From NCBI RefSeq assembly GCF_003130705.1, contig NZ_CP021354.1, positions 3,038,001 to 3,102,000 on the forward strand: DNA of 64,000 nt, in the 5' to 3' direction. The notes below the pieces were generated by a model. That model saw only the letters and a program-made list of their open reading frames with translations. It made no database searches and was not told where the DNA came from. The DNA comes from Rhodococcus oxybenzonivorans (GTDB lineage: Bacteria; Actinomycetota; Actinomycetes; Mycobacteriales; Mycobacteriaceae). Shown piece by piece: positions 30,436-34,528 of this stretch (within the stretch, counting starts at the first letter, position 1; every line of letters starts with the position of its first letter). The position numbers and the translations under genes were made by a program.

Positions 30436-30790
30436 CTCGTCAAGTTCTGCCGATGTGTCGGTTGAATCGGAGGCTGATTGGTCGCGGGCCGATTCCGAGT
30501 TCGGGCTGAGCAACTCCGGTCGCTGCACCAGCAACTGTCGCAGCCGCGGAGCCATCAATAGGGTGACGGCGCTGGTGCTGAGGAACCTGACCGTCGTTTC
30601 GTACCCCGCGACCACCATCAACGAGGCGGTGCCCACCGCTTCGGACGCCGAGAGCCAGTCGGCTCGTCGGCGGCGGCGAGCTCGCTGAACAAGTCATCGG
30701 CCGGGCACCCGGCCTTGGCGGCCAGCAGCGAGTCCGCATCACCGCGGGCGATATCTGCTGTCCGATAGCTGCCGGACAGATCGGGCATGC
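30436..30790 (-). pseudogene. Cytochrome P450 remnant
   Basis: The reverse strand reads DADSLLAAKAGCPADDLFSELAAADE, then, after a frameshift, LSASEAVGTASLMVVAGYETTVRFLSTSAVTLL and RQLLVQRPELL. This is the F/G-to-I-helix part of a bacterial cytochrome P450; AGYETT is the oxygen-activating I-helix signature. The ExxR and heme-Cys regions are missing and the frame is broken. A decayed fragment. Confidence 0.75.
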
Positions 30791-31074
30791 CCGAGGTTCA
30801 TGCATACCGCCTTGACGGTTCGGGGGCGAGGCAACCGAGTCGCCTATGCGGCAGACATTCTCGCCTGACCAAAGTTGCGGAGTTGATCTCAGCGGAGCCG
30901 CAGCAGCGCGGCGCCCACACTTTGAGCGCCGACTTGCGACGGTCGTTGGAGTGGTCTGCACCGGCCGTCCCCGTTGGCACGCGTCGCGTTCGAGCAATTT
31001 CTGGGGGGGAATGCGTCCGCAACCGGACGAGAAGGAAGGAGACGAACTCTCTTCCACTTTCAATGTATAGCGCA
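30791..31074. other. Non-coding region upstream of rifamycin-type operon
   Basis: No gene seen. TATAGC at 31066-31071 could be a -10 element for the glycosyltransferase operon, placing the inverted repeat at the transcription start; no good -35 was found. Confidence 0.35.
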
Positions 31075-31111
31075 CCCGGGGTCTTGCGGCAAGGCCCGGG
31101 TTGTGCCGCAA
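31075..31111 (+). promoter_or_regulatory. Inverted repeat resembling a rifamycin-associated element (RAE)
   Basis: CCCGGGGTCTTGC-GGCAAGGCCCGGG (31075-31100) is a near-perfect palindrome centred on CTTGCGGCAAG. As I recall, this is the core of the RAE found ahead of rifamycin-inactivating genes and helR in actinobacteria. A second, overlapping inverted repeat pairs TTGCGGC (31084-31090) with GCCGCAA (31105-31111), so two alternative structures are possible. It lies 44-80 bases before the glycosyltransferase start. The match to the published consensus was not checked by alignment. Confidence 0.72.
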
Positions 31112-31154
31112 ACTTACCGGCCTGAGCCGGAACCGGCGGAATTGGGGGACATGA

Positions 31155-32384
31155 ATGCGTGTGTTGTTGTCGACGTATGGGTCGCGCGGTGATGTCGAAC
31201 CGTTGGTGGGACTCGTGGTGCAGTTGCAGGACCTCGGCACGGAGGTGCGGGTGTGCGCGCCGCCGGACGAGGACTTCGCGCAGCGCCTGGCTGGTGTCGG
31301 CGTATCGATGGTGCCCGTCGGGCAGTCGGCACGTGCGCTGACGACCGCGGCACCGTCTTCGGCGGACCTGCCCCGGCGCGCGGCCGAGTTGATCGCCGCT
31401 CAGTTCGAGGCGGTCACTGCTGCGGCCGAGGGATGTGACGGGTTGGTCGCGACCGGTGTGATGCCTGCGGCGGCCGGTGCGTTGTCGGTGGCCGAGAAAC
31501 TGGGCATTCCGTCCGTGTCCGTGACCTTTCAGCAGCTCACCTTGCCGTCACCGCATCGCCCGCCGCTGGCGTATCCGGGCCGGTCATTCCCGCCGGATGT
31601 GACGGACAACCGGACACTGTGGGAGCTGGACGCTCAGAGCATCGATGCGCTTTTCGGTGAGGCGCTCGACACCAACCGGGCGTCGATCGGCCTGCCCCCG
31701 GTAAGCCACGTTCGCGACTACGTTTTCGGCGACCGGCCGTGGCTCGCGACGGACCCGATTCTGGACCCGTGGCGAGGGACGTCAGACCTCGATGTCGTCC
31801 AGACCGGCGCGTGGATCCCGCCCGACGACCGCCCACTTCCTGCCGACTTGGTGGCATTTCTGGACGCTGGCACACCGCCGGTGTATGTGGGCTTCGGCAG
31901 CATGCCCATGGGAGTGGCGAAGGACGCCGCCAGGGTGGCCATCGAGGCGATCCGCGCGCAGGGGCGCCGCGCACTTGTCGGGCGGGGTTGGGCGGACCTC
32001 GCCCTGATCGACGACCTCGCCGACTGCTTCGCCGTCGGCGAGGTCAATCAGCAGGCACTGTTCACCCGGGTAGCCGCCGTCGTGCACCATGGCGGCGCGG
32101 GAACGACGACGACGGCCACGCGGGCAGGCGCGCCACAGGTGGTGGTACCGCAGGTGGTGGACCAACCGTACTGGGCCGGACGAGTGGCCGCTATGGGTAT
32201 CGGCGCAGCGCACGACGGTCCGGTTCCGACCTTCGAGTCGCTGTCGGCAGCACTCACGGCGGCCCTGACTCCTCAAACCAGAGCACGGGCGGCCGCCGTG
32301 GCGGGCACGATCCGAACGGACGGGGCAGCGGTCGCCGCGACGCTGCTGCTCGGCACGATTGAACGACCAACGGATCGGAGCTGA
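31155..32384 (+). CDS. GT1/UGT-type glycosyltransferase, probable rifamycin glycosyltransferase (Rgt)
   Basis: 409-residue GT-B glycosyltransferase of the macrolide/antibiotic type. The N-terminus MRVLLSTYGSRGDVEPLVGLV is characteristic, and the C-terminal donor-binding motif VHHGGAGTTTTATRAGAP-QVVVP-DQPYWA is complete, so it should be active with a nucleotide sugar. ATG 31155 follows GGGGGA. Its stop overlaps the start of a HelR-type gene (TGATG), and an RAE-like repeat precedes it. Actinobacterial rifamycin glycosyltransferases, which modify the C23 hydroxyl, have this context. Family sure; substrate inferred from context. Confidence 0.85.
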   Translation: MRVLLSTYGSRGDVEPLVGLVVQLQDLGTEVRVCAPPDEDFAQRLAGVGVSMVPVGQSARALTTAAPSSADLPRRAAELIAAQFEAVTAAAEGCDGLVATGVMPAAAGALSVAEKLGIPSVSVTFQQLTLPSPHRPPLAYPGRSFPPDVTDNRTLWELDAQSIDALFGEALDTNRASIGLPPVSHVRDYVFGDRPWLATDPILDPWRGTSDLDVVQTGAWIPPDDRPLPADLVAFLDAGTPPVYVGFGSMPMGVAKDAARVAIEAIRAQGRRALVGRGWADLALIDDLADCFAVGEVNQQALFTRVAAVVHHGGAGTTTTATRAGAPQVVVPQVVDQPYWAGRVAAMGIGAAHDGPVPTFESLSAALTAALTPQTRARAAAVAGTIRTDGAAVAATLLLGTIERPTDRS

Positions 32385-34528
32385 TGACTGTGAACCCCTT
32401 GACTACCACGGCATTCGCTCTTCCCGACCACCTGACGGCCAAGGCCGACCCGGCGCTGATCGCCGGGGATGAGCGGCACTTCGCCGCGATCGCAGAAAGC
32501 CTCGAACAGTCCATCGCCGACCTGTCCCGCCGCATCGATGCCGAACGCAAAGCGCCCCGCCGTCTGGGCCAGGAGGCGATGGAGCGGGACATGATGGTTC
32601 ACGAGCTGAACGCTCAGCTGCGCGCCTTGCGCCGCTTCGGCTTGGACCTGTGCCTCGGACACATCGTCAGCGCCGACAACCCCGAGCCCGTGTATGTCGG
32701 ACGCCTCGGCCTCATGGACAGTGCGGGCAATCAGCTGCTGGTCGACTGGCGTTCGCCCGCGGCCGAGCCGTTCTTCGGGGCCACCCACGCCAACCCGCTG
32801 GGCCTGACCCGCCGTCGCAGGTATCGCTGGACCCGCGGGCGGATCAGCGATTACTGGGACGAGGTGTTTACGCCTGACGGGTTCGAAGGGAACGCGGCGC
32901 TCGACGACCAGTCCGCGTTCATCGCCAGCTTGGGCAGCAACCGGACTGCCCGAATGCGAGACGTGCTCGGCACCATCCAGGCCGACCAGGACGCCATCAT
33001 CCGTGCGGGAGCGAGCGGCGCCCTCGTCGTCGACGGTGGTCCGGGTACAGGTAAGACCGTCGTCGCGCTGCACCGCGCCGCGTACCTGCTCTACTCCGAC
33101 CCCCGACTCCGTCACGGGGTGTTGTTCGTCGGACCACACGAGCCCTACCTGGCCTACGTCGCCGACGTCCTGCCCAGCCTCGGCGAAGAGGGCGTTCAAC
33201 TGTGCACCCTGCGCGACCTCGTCACCGAGGGCGCCGCCGCCCGGGTCGAGCAGGATCCGGAGGTGGCGCGCCTGAAGTCGTCCGCGGATCTGGTGAAGGC
33301 GATCGGTGCGGCCGTCGAGTTCTACGAGGAGCCGCCCACCGAGGGCATGACGGTCGCGACCGACTGGACCGACCTCTGGCTGAGCGCCGACGACTGGGTC
33401 GAGGCATTCGCAGCGCCGGAACCCGGCACTCCGCACAACGAGGCGCGGGACCAGATCTGGGAGCTGCTGCTCACGATCCTGATCGACAAGTACGACGGTG
33501 ACGTTCCGGCCGCCCAACTCCGGAAGTCGTTGCAGCAGAACGACGAACTGCGCGCAACCCTCGACAACGCATGGACCCTGATCGAAGCCGCCGACCTCGT
33601 CGCAGACCTGTGGTCGGTCCCCGCCTACCTGCGCAAGTGCGCACCCTGGCTCAGCGACGACGAAATTCGGAAACTGCAACGCGCGGACGCCCAGAACTGG
33701 ACGGTGTCCGACCTGCCACTGCTGGATGCGGCACGGCAGCGACTCGGGGACCCGGCGGCGTCAGGACGCCGACGTCGGTGCAACGCCGCCGTCGCTGCCG
33801 AACGCGCGCGCATGAGTGACGTCGTCGACGACCTGATCGCGGCCGACGACTCGGAAATGCTCGTGATGTCGATGCTGCGTGGCCAGGACCTGCAGCAGTC
33901 CCTGGTCGACGAGACCGCTCTGCCGAGCTCCGACCCGGATTTGCTCGCCGGACCGTTCGCGCACATCGTGGTGGACGAGGCTCAGGAACTGACGGACGCG
34001 GAGTGGCAGATGTTGTTGCTGCGCTGCCCGTCCCGCAGCTTCACCATCGTCGGGGACCGGGCGCAGGCCCGGCACGGGTTCACCGAGTCGTGGCACGAAC
34101 GGCTCGGGCGGATCGGGTTCGATCGGATCGACCTCGCCGCACTGAGCATCAACTACCGGACCCCGGAAGAGATCATGACGGAAGCCGAACTGGTCATCCG
34201 TACCTTCCTCCCGGACGCCAACGTGCCGACCTCCATCCGCAGCAGCGGCAACCCCGTCGTACACCGATCCACGTCGGAGCTGGGCTCGATCCTCGACACC
34301 TGGCTCGAATCGAACTCCGACGGGATCGCATGCGTCATAGGCGATCCCGATTTCCAGTCGACGTCGCGTATCCGGTCGCTGACACCGGAGCTGTCGAAGG
34401 GGCTCGAGTTCGACCTCGTCATTCTGGTCGACCCGGCGTCGTTCGGTGAGGGGATCGAAGGAGCCGTCGACCGCTACGTCGCCATGACGCGGGCAACCCG
34501 GCAACTCGTCATCCTCACGAGTTGCTGA
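32384..34528 (+). CDS. helR: HelR/HelD-type RNA-polymerase-associated helicase-like ATPase
   Basis: 714-residue superfamily-1-like ATPase. The N-terminal coiled-coil arm (about 20-90) precedes VDWRSPAAEPFFGA, a signature of HelD-type proteins. Walker A is GGPGTGKT at 218-225, followed by VVALHRAAYLL. A large helical insert follows, then IVVDEAQELTDAEWQMLL (motif II), TIVGDRAQ, INYRTPEEIM and VAMTRATRQLVIL. HelD-family proteins recycle stalled RNA polymerase. The HelR branch displaces rifamycin from the enzyme and is induced through RAE sites in Streptomyces and some mycobacteria. Co-transcription with a glycosyltransferase behind an RAE-like repeat supports HelR over plain HelD. Confidence 0.85.
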   Translation: MTVNPLTTTAFALPDHLTAKADPALIAGDERHFAAIAESLEQSIADLSRRIDAERKAPRRLGQEAMERDMMVHELNAQLRALRRFGLDLCLGHIVSADNPEPVYVGRLGLMDSAGNQLLVDWRSPAAEPFFGATHANPLGLTRRRRYRWTRGRISDYWDEVFTPDGFEGNAALDDQSAFIASLGSNRTARMRDVLGTIQADQDAIIRAGASGALVVDGGPGTGKTVVALHRAAYLLYSDPRLRHGVLFVGPHEPYLAYVADVLPSLGEEGVQLCTLRDLVTEGAAARVEQDPEVARLKSSADLVKAIGAAVEFYEEPPTEGMTVATDWTDLWLSADDWVEAFAAPEPGTPHNEARDQIWELLLTILIDKYDGDVPAAQLRKSLQQNDELRATLDNAWTLIEAADLVADLWSVPAYLRKCAPWLSDDEIRKLQRADAQNWTVSDLPLLDAARQRLGDPAASGRRRRCNAAVAAERARMSDVVDDLIAADDSEMLVMSMLRGQDLQQSLVDETALPSSDPDLLAGPFAHIVVDEAQELTDAEWQMLLLRCPSRSFTIVGDRAQARHGFTESWHERLGRIGFDRIDLAALSINYRTPEEIMTEAELVIRTFLPDANVPTSIRSSGNPVVHRSTSELGSILDTWLESNSDGIACVIGDPDFQSTSRIRSLTPELSKGLEFDLVILVDPASFGEGIEGAVDRYVAMTRATRQLVILTSC

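Follow-up and report, generated by a model that had tools for sequence, protein, structure and literature searches.

A predicted rgt–helR operon of Rhodococcus oxybenzonivorans with a probable two-way promoter at its rifamycin-associated element

The locus

We studied a rifamycin-associated element (RAE) and the genes behind it in Rhodococcus oxybenzonivorans, using a stretch of 64,000 nucleotides (the window; contig NZ_CP021354.1, positions 3,038,001 to 3,102,000, or G000:C1:3038001-3102000 in our numbering) from a genome of 8,014,224 bases on 4 contigs. The original prediction for this DNA had named a palindrome followed by an antibiotic-type glycosyltransferase and a HelD/HelR-class ATPase, and all three were present at the places claimed:

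31079–31097, plus strand: RAE, the 19-bp palindrome GGGTCTTGCGGCAAGGCCC (exact pattern match)
31155–32384, plus strand: rgt-like glycosyltransferase of the Rgt clade, 409 aa (GT28/EryCIII-like domains, model NF000354, tree)
32384–34528, plus strand: helR, a predicted RNA polymerase recycling and rifamycin-release ATPase, 714 aa (model NF041254)

Together, they very probably constitute a chromosomal rifamycin-response operon of the order RAE, rgt, helR. RAE-controlled rifamycin genes in actinobacteria comprise rgt, rox, helR and arr, and the published cases are rifampicin-inducible (PMC10719064, PMC8655204, PMC12802891). The window's operon is another member of this already known type, and its unexpected part is the promoter. 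We regard an operon driven by a two-way promoter as a likely explanation of the locus as a whole.

The RAE in the genome and the family

The RAE is reportedly owed to Spanogiannopoulos (2014), and the 19-mer of the window was identified with it on the basis of what we take to be the published consensus letters. Within the window, GGGNCTTGCGGCAAGNCCC with up to three mismatches matched the RAE and its own complement only (2 matches on both strands versus 0.37 expected from shuffles). The exact pattern GGGNCTTGCNGCAAGNCCC occurred at two places in the whole genome, namely positions 31079–31097 of the window and C1:3284934-3284952, and a reversed-pattern control with a central G gave 0 matches in this genome. 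The distance from the first RAE base to the start codon of the glycosyltransferase is 76 bp. Comparison of 115 related glycosyltransferase loci bore out the match to the RAE profile; the same 19-mer with at most two mismatches precedes the gene by 76–101 bp, mostly 76–83 bp, in 105 of them. Across the family, 151 of 251 genomes carried exact GGGNCTTGCGGCAAGNCCC at least once, and the reversed-pattern control had 0 matches among the rows listed. Positions 31079–31097 were thereby confirmed as an RAE-type palindrome in front of a putative rifamycin resistance gene, with the length and palindromic nature given for RAEs in a review (PMC10719064).

The second exact RAE of the genome (L240, C1:3284934-3284952) stands before the gene of a rifampin monooxygenase of 513 aa (927.4 bits on NF033145, cut-off 800), and the strain would have three RAE-controlled rifamycin defences, rgt, helR and rox. 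This rox RAE lies in the same extended module as described below, with GAGAAT as gene-facing box. A separate case is Streptomyces sp. Ru71 (L067), which has two RAE modules ~5 kb apart on opposite strands, one leading to rgt–helR and the other to rox, in a compact rifamycin-resistance island.

The glycosyltransferase and the ATPase

The glycosyltransferase scored 523.3 bits against NF000354, the NCBI model for Rgt, far above any other family, and macrolide and lipid enzymes matched it much less well. A quick tree of 90 rows was computed with SH-aLRT as the sole support, left 33 of its 82 inner branches open and was rooted on GtfA/B/D by choice. In it, the vancomycin-type enzymes GtfA/B/D split off at a starred value of 99, and the window protein grouped with the top Rgt-scoring proteins, as anticipated. 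There it falls into a starred set of four Rhodococcus-type rows within the RAE-bearing clade; RAE presence required five changes over 74 rows with and 13 rows without the element. The nearest named glycosyltransferase, with 88% identity, is from Rhodococcus opacus.

Counting against an assignment to Rgt, 523.3 bits fall short of the equivalog cut-off of NF000354 (800 bits). This cut-off is very strict, because the best of 392 genomes in the genus of G352 (probably Streptomyces) scores only 708, so that 0 of 392 pass it. A vancomycin-type or other antibiotic enzyme not aimed at rifamycins would fit that shortfall as well as the 59% identity to GtfB, which is also the best PDB match (471.5 bits). 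We consider this reading highly improbable; an RAE precedes the gene and HelR follows it, identity is 67% to the best Rgt scorer (L114) versus 59% to GtfB, and the tree keeps the two groups in separate clades. Judged by its sequence, the enzyme belongs to the broader Rgt clade. Known Rgt acts at the C-23 hydroxyl of rifamycins (PMC7283461).

Elsewhere in the tree, a tight Streptomyces-type clade (L064, L073, L080, L081, L096 and L023/L033) consists of Rgt-like glycosyltransferases lacking both RAE and HelR, and genome G352 has two rgt-like genes in tandem (L023, L033).

The ATPase passed the HelR model NF041254 (1256.9 bits, cut-off 750) and stayed below the cut-offs of the related models HelR_2 (440 bits, cut-off 1100) and HelD_MYCSM (402 bits, cut-off 1051), so the predicted class proved correct. 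Residues 43–711 align with Mycobacterium smegmatis HelD (PDB 6yxu, 350.6 bits). The PCh-loop region, through which HelR reaches the drug pocket, is present insofar as the alignment spans it with single-residue gaps only, at the tip, the position of the loop (D485) being taken from PMC11464796. The protein is, in terms of sequence, a clear HelR. The genome encodes another ATPase (L241), which is closer to HelR_2/HelD and stays below every cut-off.

Operon layout in related genomes

The glycosyltransferase and ATPase genes meet at the junction TGATG and have one base in common, in agreement with the overlap reported for them before. Because of this overlap, and because no second RAE lies between the genes, we infer that rgt and helR are on one transcript. 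Since the two genes are 27–457 bp apart in 34 of 45 rgt–HelR loci, a second RAE was sought between rgt and the ATPase gene in 53 rgt–ATPase loci, where every site had at least five mismatches. In the eight Rhodococcus rgt–HelR loci, the gap is -10 to -1 bp (for all these gaps, ATPase starts were extrapolated from the alignment). Named rgt loci with an RAE have one each, except for L067, in which the second one fronts rox.

An operon survey covered 86 loci, comprising the window, 80 named loci and five from the genus, three of which duplicate named loci by tree identity. The order RAE–rgt–HelR was found in 45. Eight others have RAE–rgt followed by an HelR_2/HelD-like ATPase 36–40% identical to that of the window (L053, L072, L075, L076, L088, L090, L091 and L179, from Nocardia, Kutzneria and others), which in L088 comes only after ~1.4 kb. 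A further 22 have RAE–rgt without such a gene, nine have neither RAE nor ATPase and two end too early. As two ATPase classes stand behind RAE–rgt, these data suggest that the rgt–ATPase pairing arose more than once. Within the genus, the glycosyltransferase was found in 6 of 28 genomes, and the five besides the window all have an ATPase directly behind it (HelR in four, the other class in one). A single switch would often control both drug modification and target rescue.

A two-sided conserved module

Conservation at the RAE extends well past its 19 bp. When the 105 rgt loci carrying the 19-mer with at most two mismatches were aligned on the RAE, it ran from about -32 to +67. To see whether this wider conservation is a property of the RAE or of rgt alone, we collected promoter modules from the rgt loci, from 30 RAE loci returned by the family scan, from 60 further ones hand-picked among the places it listed and from the genome's own rox. 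The collection held 199 distinct modules with the RAE fixed by selection (at most one mismatch) and the flanks left free. BLAST assigned 197 of these to genes (108 rgt, 26 rox, 31 helR, 16 helD and 16 arr), leaving out L187 and L214. The arr reference passes its NCBIfam cut-off (205 bits, cut-off 130), as do the rox and helR references; for helD, the reference is a partial protein whose best model is HelD_MYCSM, and for rgt, the protein of the window itself was used. HelR and HelD are mutually related, so the five gene groups represent four unrelated protein types.

On both sides of the RAE, the modules contain boxes resembling promoter elements, here called gene-facing or away-facing according to their direction relative to the resistance gene. 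In the window, these are:

31084–31089, plus strand: gene-facing -35-like TTGCGG inside the RAE, 19 bp from the gene-facing -10-like box
31109–31114, plus strand: gene-facing -10-like CAAACT, with a predicted start near 31121 (CAnnnT at the same offset in 191 of 197 modules)
31087–31092, minus strand: away-facing -35-like TTGCCG on the opposite RAE strand, the mirror image of the gene-facing one
31062–31067, minus strand: away-facing -10-like TACATT, with a predicted start near 31055 (TAnnnT at the same offset in 194 of 197 modules)

Flank conservation in the 197 modules was nearly mirror-symmetric. On the gene side, CAnnnT starts with the 12th base outside the RAE; the six exceptions have GAnnnT (four, including the genome's own rox) or a box shifted by one base (L158, L227). 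On the away side, TAnnnT likewise starts with the 12th base, read on the opposite strand, with L054, L215 and L225 as exceptions. Both boxes are spaced 19 bp from their TTGCSG hexamers within the palindrome, and no other offset approached these counts in a scan. Orientation in this count was set by the gene, not by the boxes. Orienting modules by the longest open reading frame was discarded; it had given 19 apparent reversals among 91 modules, most of which the BLAST gene class explained (12 arr with a short frame, three rox, one rgt, the unassigned L214 and two genuine reversals, L215 and L225). An extra set of 23 Mycobacterium-type helD modules, scored from 30 loci with seven left out, had the gene-side box in 23 of 23 and the away box in 22 of 23, most commonly as TAAAAT (12 of 23). 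The two flanks are alike at the positions that define a -10 element (A at 13 and T at 17 from the RAE edge) and in little else.

The two modules left out of the assignment deserve mention in their own right. L187 precedes an exported protein, perhaps amidase-like as read from its sequence, with no known rifamycin gene recognised adjoining it. L214 resembles the helD modules of sister genomes, and a BLAST comparison detected no intact helD-type frame following the module.

The gene-facing box was read as a promoter because it agrees with the second helD promoter of M. smegmatis, for which the start is mapped and the -35 element overlaps the RAE (PMC10719064). Eight helR loci of a single genus have their first start codon from +36 onwards 7 nt past the gene-facing box, as in a leaderless message; this is suggestive only, as the same frames are open further upstream and have an earlier possible start. 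From these patterns, it appears fairly probable that the RAE serves as the common palindromic -35 element of two mutually exclusive divergent promoters. General searches of 30850–31250 returned nothing for the module: Rfam gave no match on either strand at E up to 1, and a consensus promoter scan gave none under a spacer rule of 16–18 bp that is blind to a 19-bp spacer.

The upstream box can also be read on the sense strand, which speaks against an away-facing promoter. In 190 of 197 modules, the A at -17 and T at -13 are compatible with a YAnnnT box on the sense strand at -18, and in 98% of the 89 non-rgt modules this sense box starts with C, like the gene-facing box. The upstream box could, therefore, belong to a promoter P1 in tandem with the gene-proximal P2 (or be a two-way box as in Escherichia coli), and the drug would relieve interference of P1 with P2, as in M. 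smegmatis rpoBC and as suggested for helD. Two sense starts are indeed mapped for M. smegmatis helD (PMC10719064). Such an arrangement seems quite unlikely here, as rgt loci have no conserved -35 element at the matching upstream distance, and the A at -12, present in 100% of the 89 non-rgt modules, lies outside the sense hexamer and corresponds to the first T of the antisense one. In addition, the P1 start published for a position ~20 bp upstream of the RAE is better matched by TACCCT at -32 in the two M. smegmatis-like loci L242/L243, and a box at -32 occurs in at most two modules of any gene group. The leftward hairpin described below likewise speaks against a purely sense reading.

A hairpin on the away side

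Two further features lie to the left of the away-facing box:

31034–31055, minus strand: hairpin where the away RNA is predicted to start, with one bulge and a weak T tail (minimum free energy -9.8 kcal/mol for 30 nt)
31015–31028, minus strand: GTCCGGTTGCGGAC, a second inverted repeat lying further out, which recurs at rgt modules

Among the 108 rgt modules, hairpin stability reached z < -2 relative to shuffles in 78, versus three on the mirror side. At least eight of nine stem pairs form in 90 modules; 76 of these 90 hairpins start exactly at the 24th base, that is, the predicted away start, and 63 of the 90 have at least five T in the next ten bases. The two arms covary. Taking all gene groups together, 88 hairpins begin at base 24, and their stem position 3 is C-G in 57 and A-T in 24. 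In the 76 rgt hairpins, 645 of 684 pairs are Watson-Crick pairs versus at most 585 in 2000 arm shuffles, and 46 stems are fully paired versus at most 30; the sequences are related rather than independent, so this test overstates significance.

The hairpin evidence is not uniformly favourable to a self-terminating away transcript. Arms swapped between rgt loci still gave at least eight of nine pairs in 71.6 of 108, and pairing at this level was dropped as proof of a hairpin in favour of the arm-shuffle test. Hairpins are scarce in the other gene groups (7 of 26 rox, 8 of 31 helR, 5 of 16 helD, equal to the mirror control, and 1 of 16 arr), and the 31 modules from non-rgt searches had z < -2 in five versus three on the mirror side. 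The hairpin of the window is itself weak, and a consensus terminator scan of 30850–31250 found none.

That many modules have no hairpin would suit an away promoter that is a side effect of the symmetric -35 element, with the hairpin only insulating the neighbouring gene. Bidirectional promoters are described as ubiquitous, and five tested in E. coli were without competition at basal activity (PMC12825309). We judge this somewhat unlikely. A symmetric -35 element gives no free -10 box at 19 bp, and the away box is kept in 194 of 197 modules versus 191 for the gene-facing box and is the better match to TAnnnT.

The pattern of the second inverted repeat, GTCCG..CGGAC, occurred in 23 of 108 rgt modules versus 0.56 in mononucleotide shuffles and in 0 of 31 modules of other families. 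It lies beyond the hairpin, and the modules that have it include that of the window, that of R. jostii (L036) and some from Streptomyces.

Candidate mechanism

Entry of rifamycin would switch on the RAE promoter and yield one transcript for two defences, with the glycosyltransferase modifying the drug (at the C-23 hydroxyl, if it acts like known Rgt) and HelR prising it off RNA polymerase, as known for its family. In the absence of drug, polymerase may favour the away promoter, whose box better matches the TAnnnT consensus, and its presence on the RAE would then silence the gene promoter. Transcription from the away promoter would, at many rgt loci, meet a short terminator-like hairpin at once. 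Rifamycin would then shift polymerase to the gene side, either through removal of the arrested polymerase, for example by HelR itself, or through a flank-binding protein that senses the drug.

Some points count against polymerase competition as the full account. Steric competition alone does not predict induction, because a drug-arrested polymerase should still sit on the RAE. In Bacillus subtilis, induction was lost when the two promoters were brought so close together that polymerases would clash (PMC12802891). The invariant GGG...CCC flanks outside the -35 hexamers, conserved in at least 100 of 105 rgt loci, are unexplained by -35 elements alone. These flanks and the perfect palindrome suit an operator of a rifamycin-responsive transcription factor, in which case the gene-facing promoter alone would matter and the upstream box would be part of the regulator site. 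An unknown factor is named as possible in the review (PMC10719064) and in a 2026 paper. Past the RAE, the two sides have -10-like positions in common but no visible common half-site, and a leftward hairpin, often T-tailed, with varying loop length and compensating arms, would be unexpected for an operator. We give an operator of this kind just short of an even chance. As the reader of the drug, a protein on the GGG...CCC flanks appears slightly preferable to polymerase itself.

Returning to the two divergent promoters, their strongest form is a tentative proposal with the balance somewhat against it. Here, the RAE would not primarily be a transcription-factor site but the common -35 element of paired promoters with fixed polarity (C-type -10 towards the resistance gene, T-type -10 away from it), and the away promoter would act as a polymerase-level sensor or default, giving a self-terminating RNA of ~25–60 nt at many loci until rifamycin flips transcription to rgt–helR, rox, arr or helD. 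RAE-based rifamycin sensing in actinobacteria is termed unresolved in the 2022 review (PMC10719064) and in a 2026 paper. The fixed two-sided architecture makes this question directly testable from both 5' ends. Searches for rifamycin-response genes could also use the whole module, a pattern far longer than 19 bp.

Neighbouring features

A P450-like AGYETT stretch, which we take to be a cytochrome P450 motif, lies at 30592–30609 in a minus-strand open reading frame (30440–31240, 266 aa, no Pfam match). This frame may be what is left of a P450 gene on the away side of the RAE. The original prediction had further pointed to rbpA, a rifampicin-tolerance factor, 10 kb away. An RbpA-like frame, called from what we presume to be RbpA motifs, indeed occurs on the minus strand at ~44.73–44.89 kb, ~10 kb from the operon; its relevance to the operon is probably nil, as no link is visible.

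Comparison with known systems

In the literature search, neither an rgt–helR operon nor the away box was found reported, the primary RAE, HelR and Rgt papers lying beyond its reach. The window resembles the known RAE-controlled genes in its 19-bp palindrome in the 5' region and in its gene families and differs in having rgt and helR under one RAE. The modules compiled here are, moreover, conserved over ~75 bp or more and have a mirrored second -10-like box, which the available excerpts do not describe for those genes. Like HelR and class II HelD proteins (M. abscessus MAB_3189c, S. venezuelae SVEN_6029, M. smegmatis HelD 6YXU), the window ATPase lies above the NCBIfam HelR cut-off and aligns with M. 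smegmatis HelD through the PCh-loop, but its gene stands directly behind that of a drug-modifying enzyme, probably on the same transcript.

Two promoter systems invite comparison. The bidirectional promoters of E. coli likewise use one symmetric sequence to engage polymerase in two mutually exclusive orientations; their common element is the -10 box, with starts mostly 18 bp apart, whereas that of the window would be the -35 element, with predicted starts 66 bp apart (PMC12825309). The dual-promoter rifampicin alarm of B. subtilis helD is alike in that a promoter on the opposite strand opposes that of a HelD gene. There, the promoters converge, their starts are 39 bp apart and an overlap at which polymerases clash abolished regulation, whereas those of the window would diverge from a -35 element common to both (PMC12802891). 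If the away promoter does act as a sensor, the RAE module would be the actinobacterial counterpart, in opposite geometry, of the B. subtilis dual-promoter alarm.

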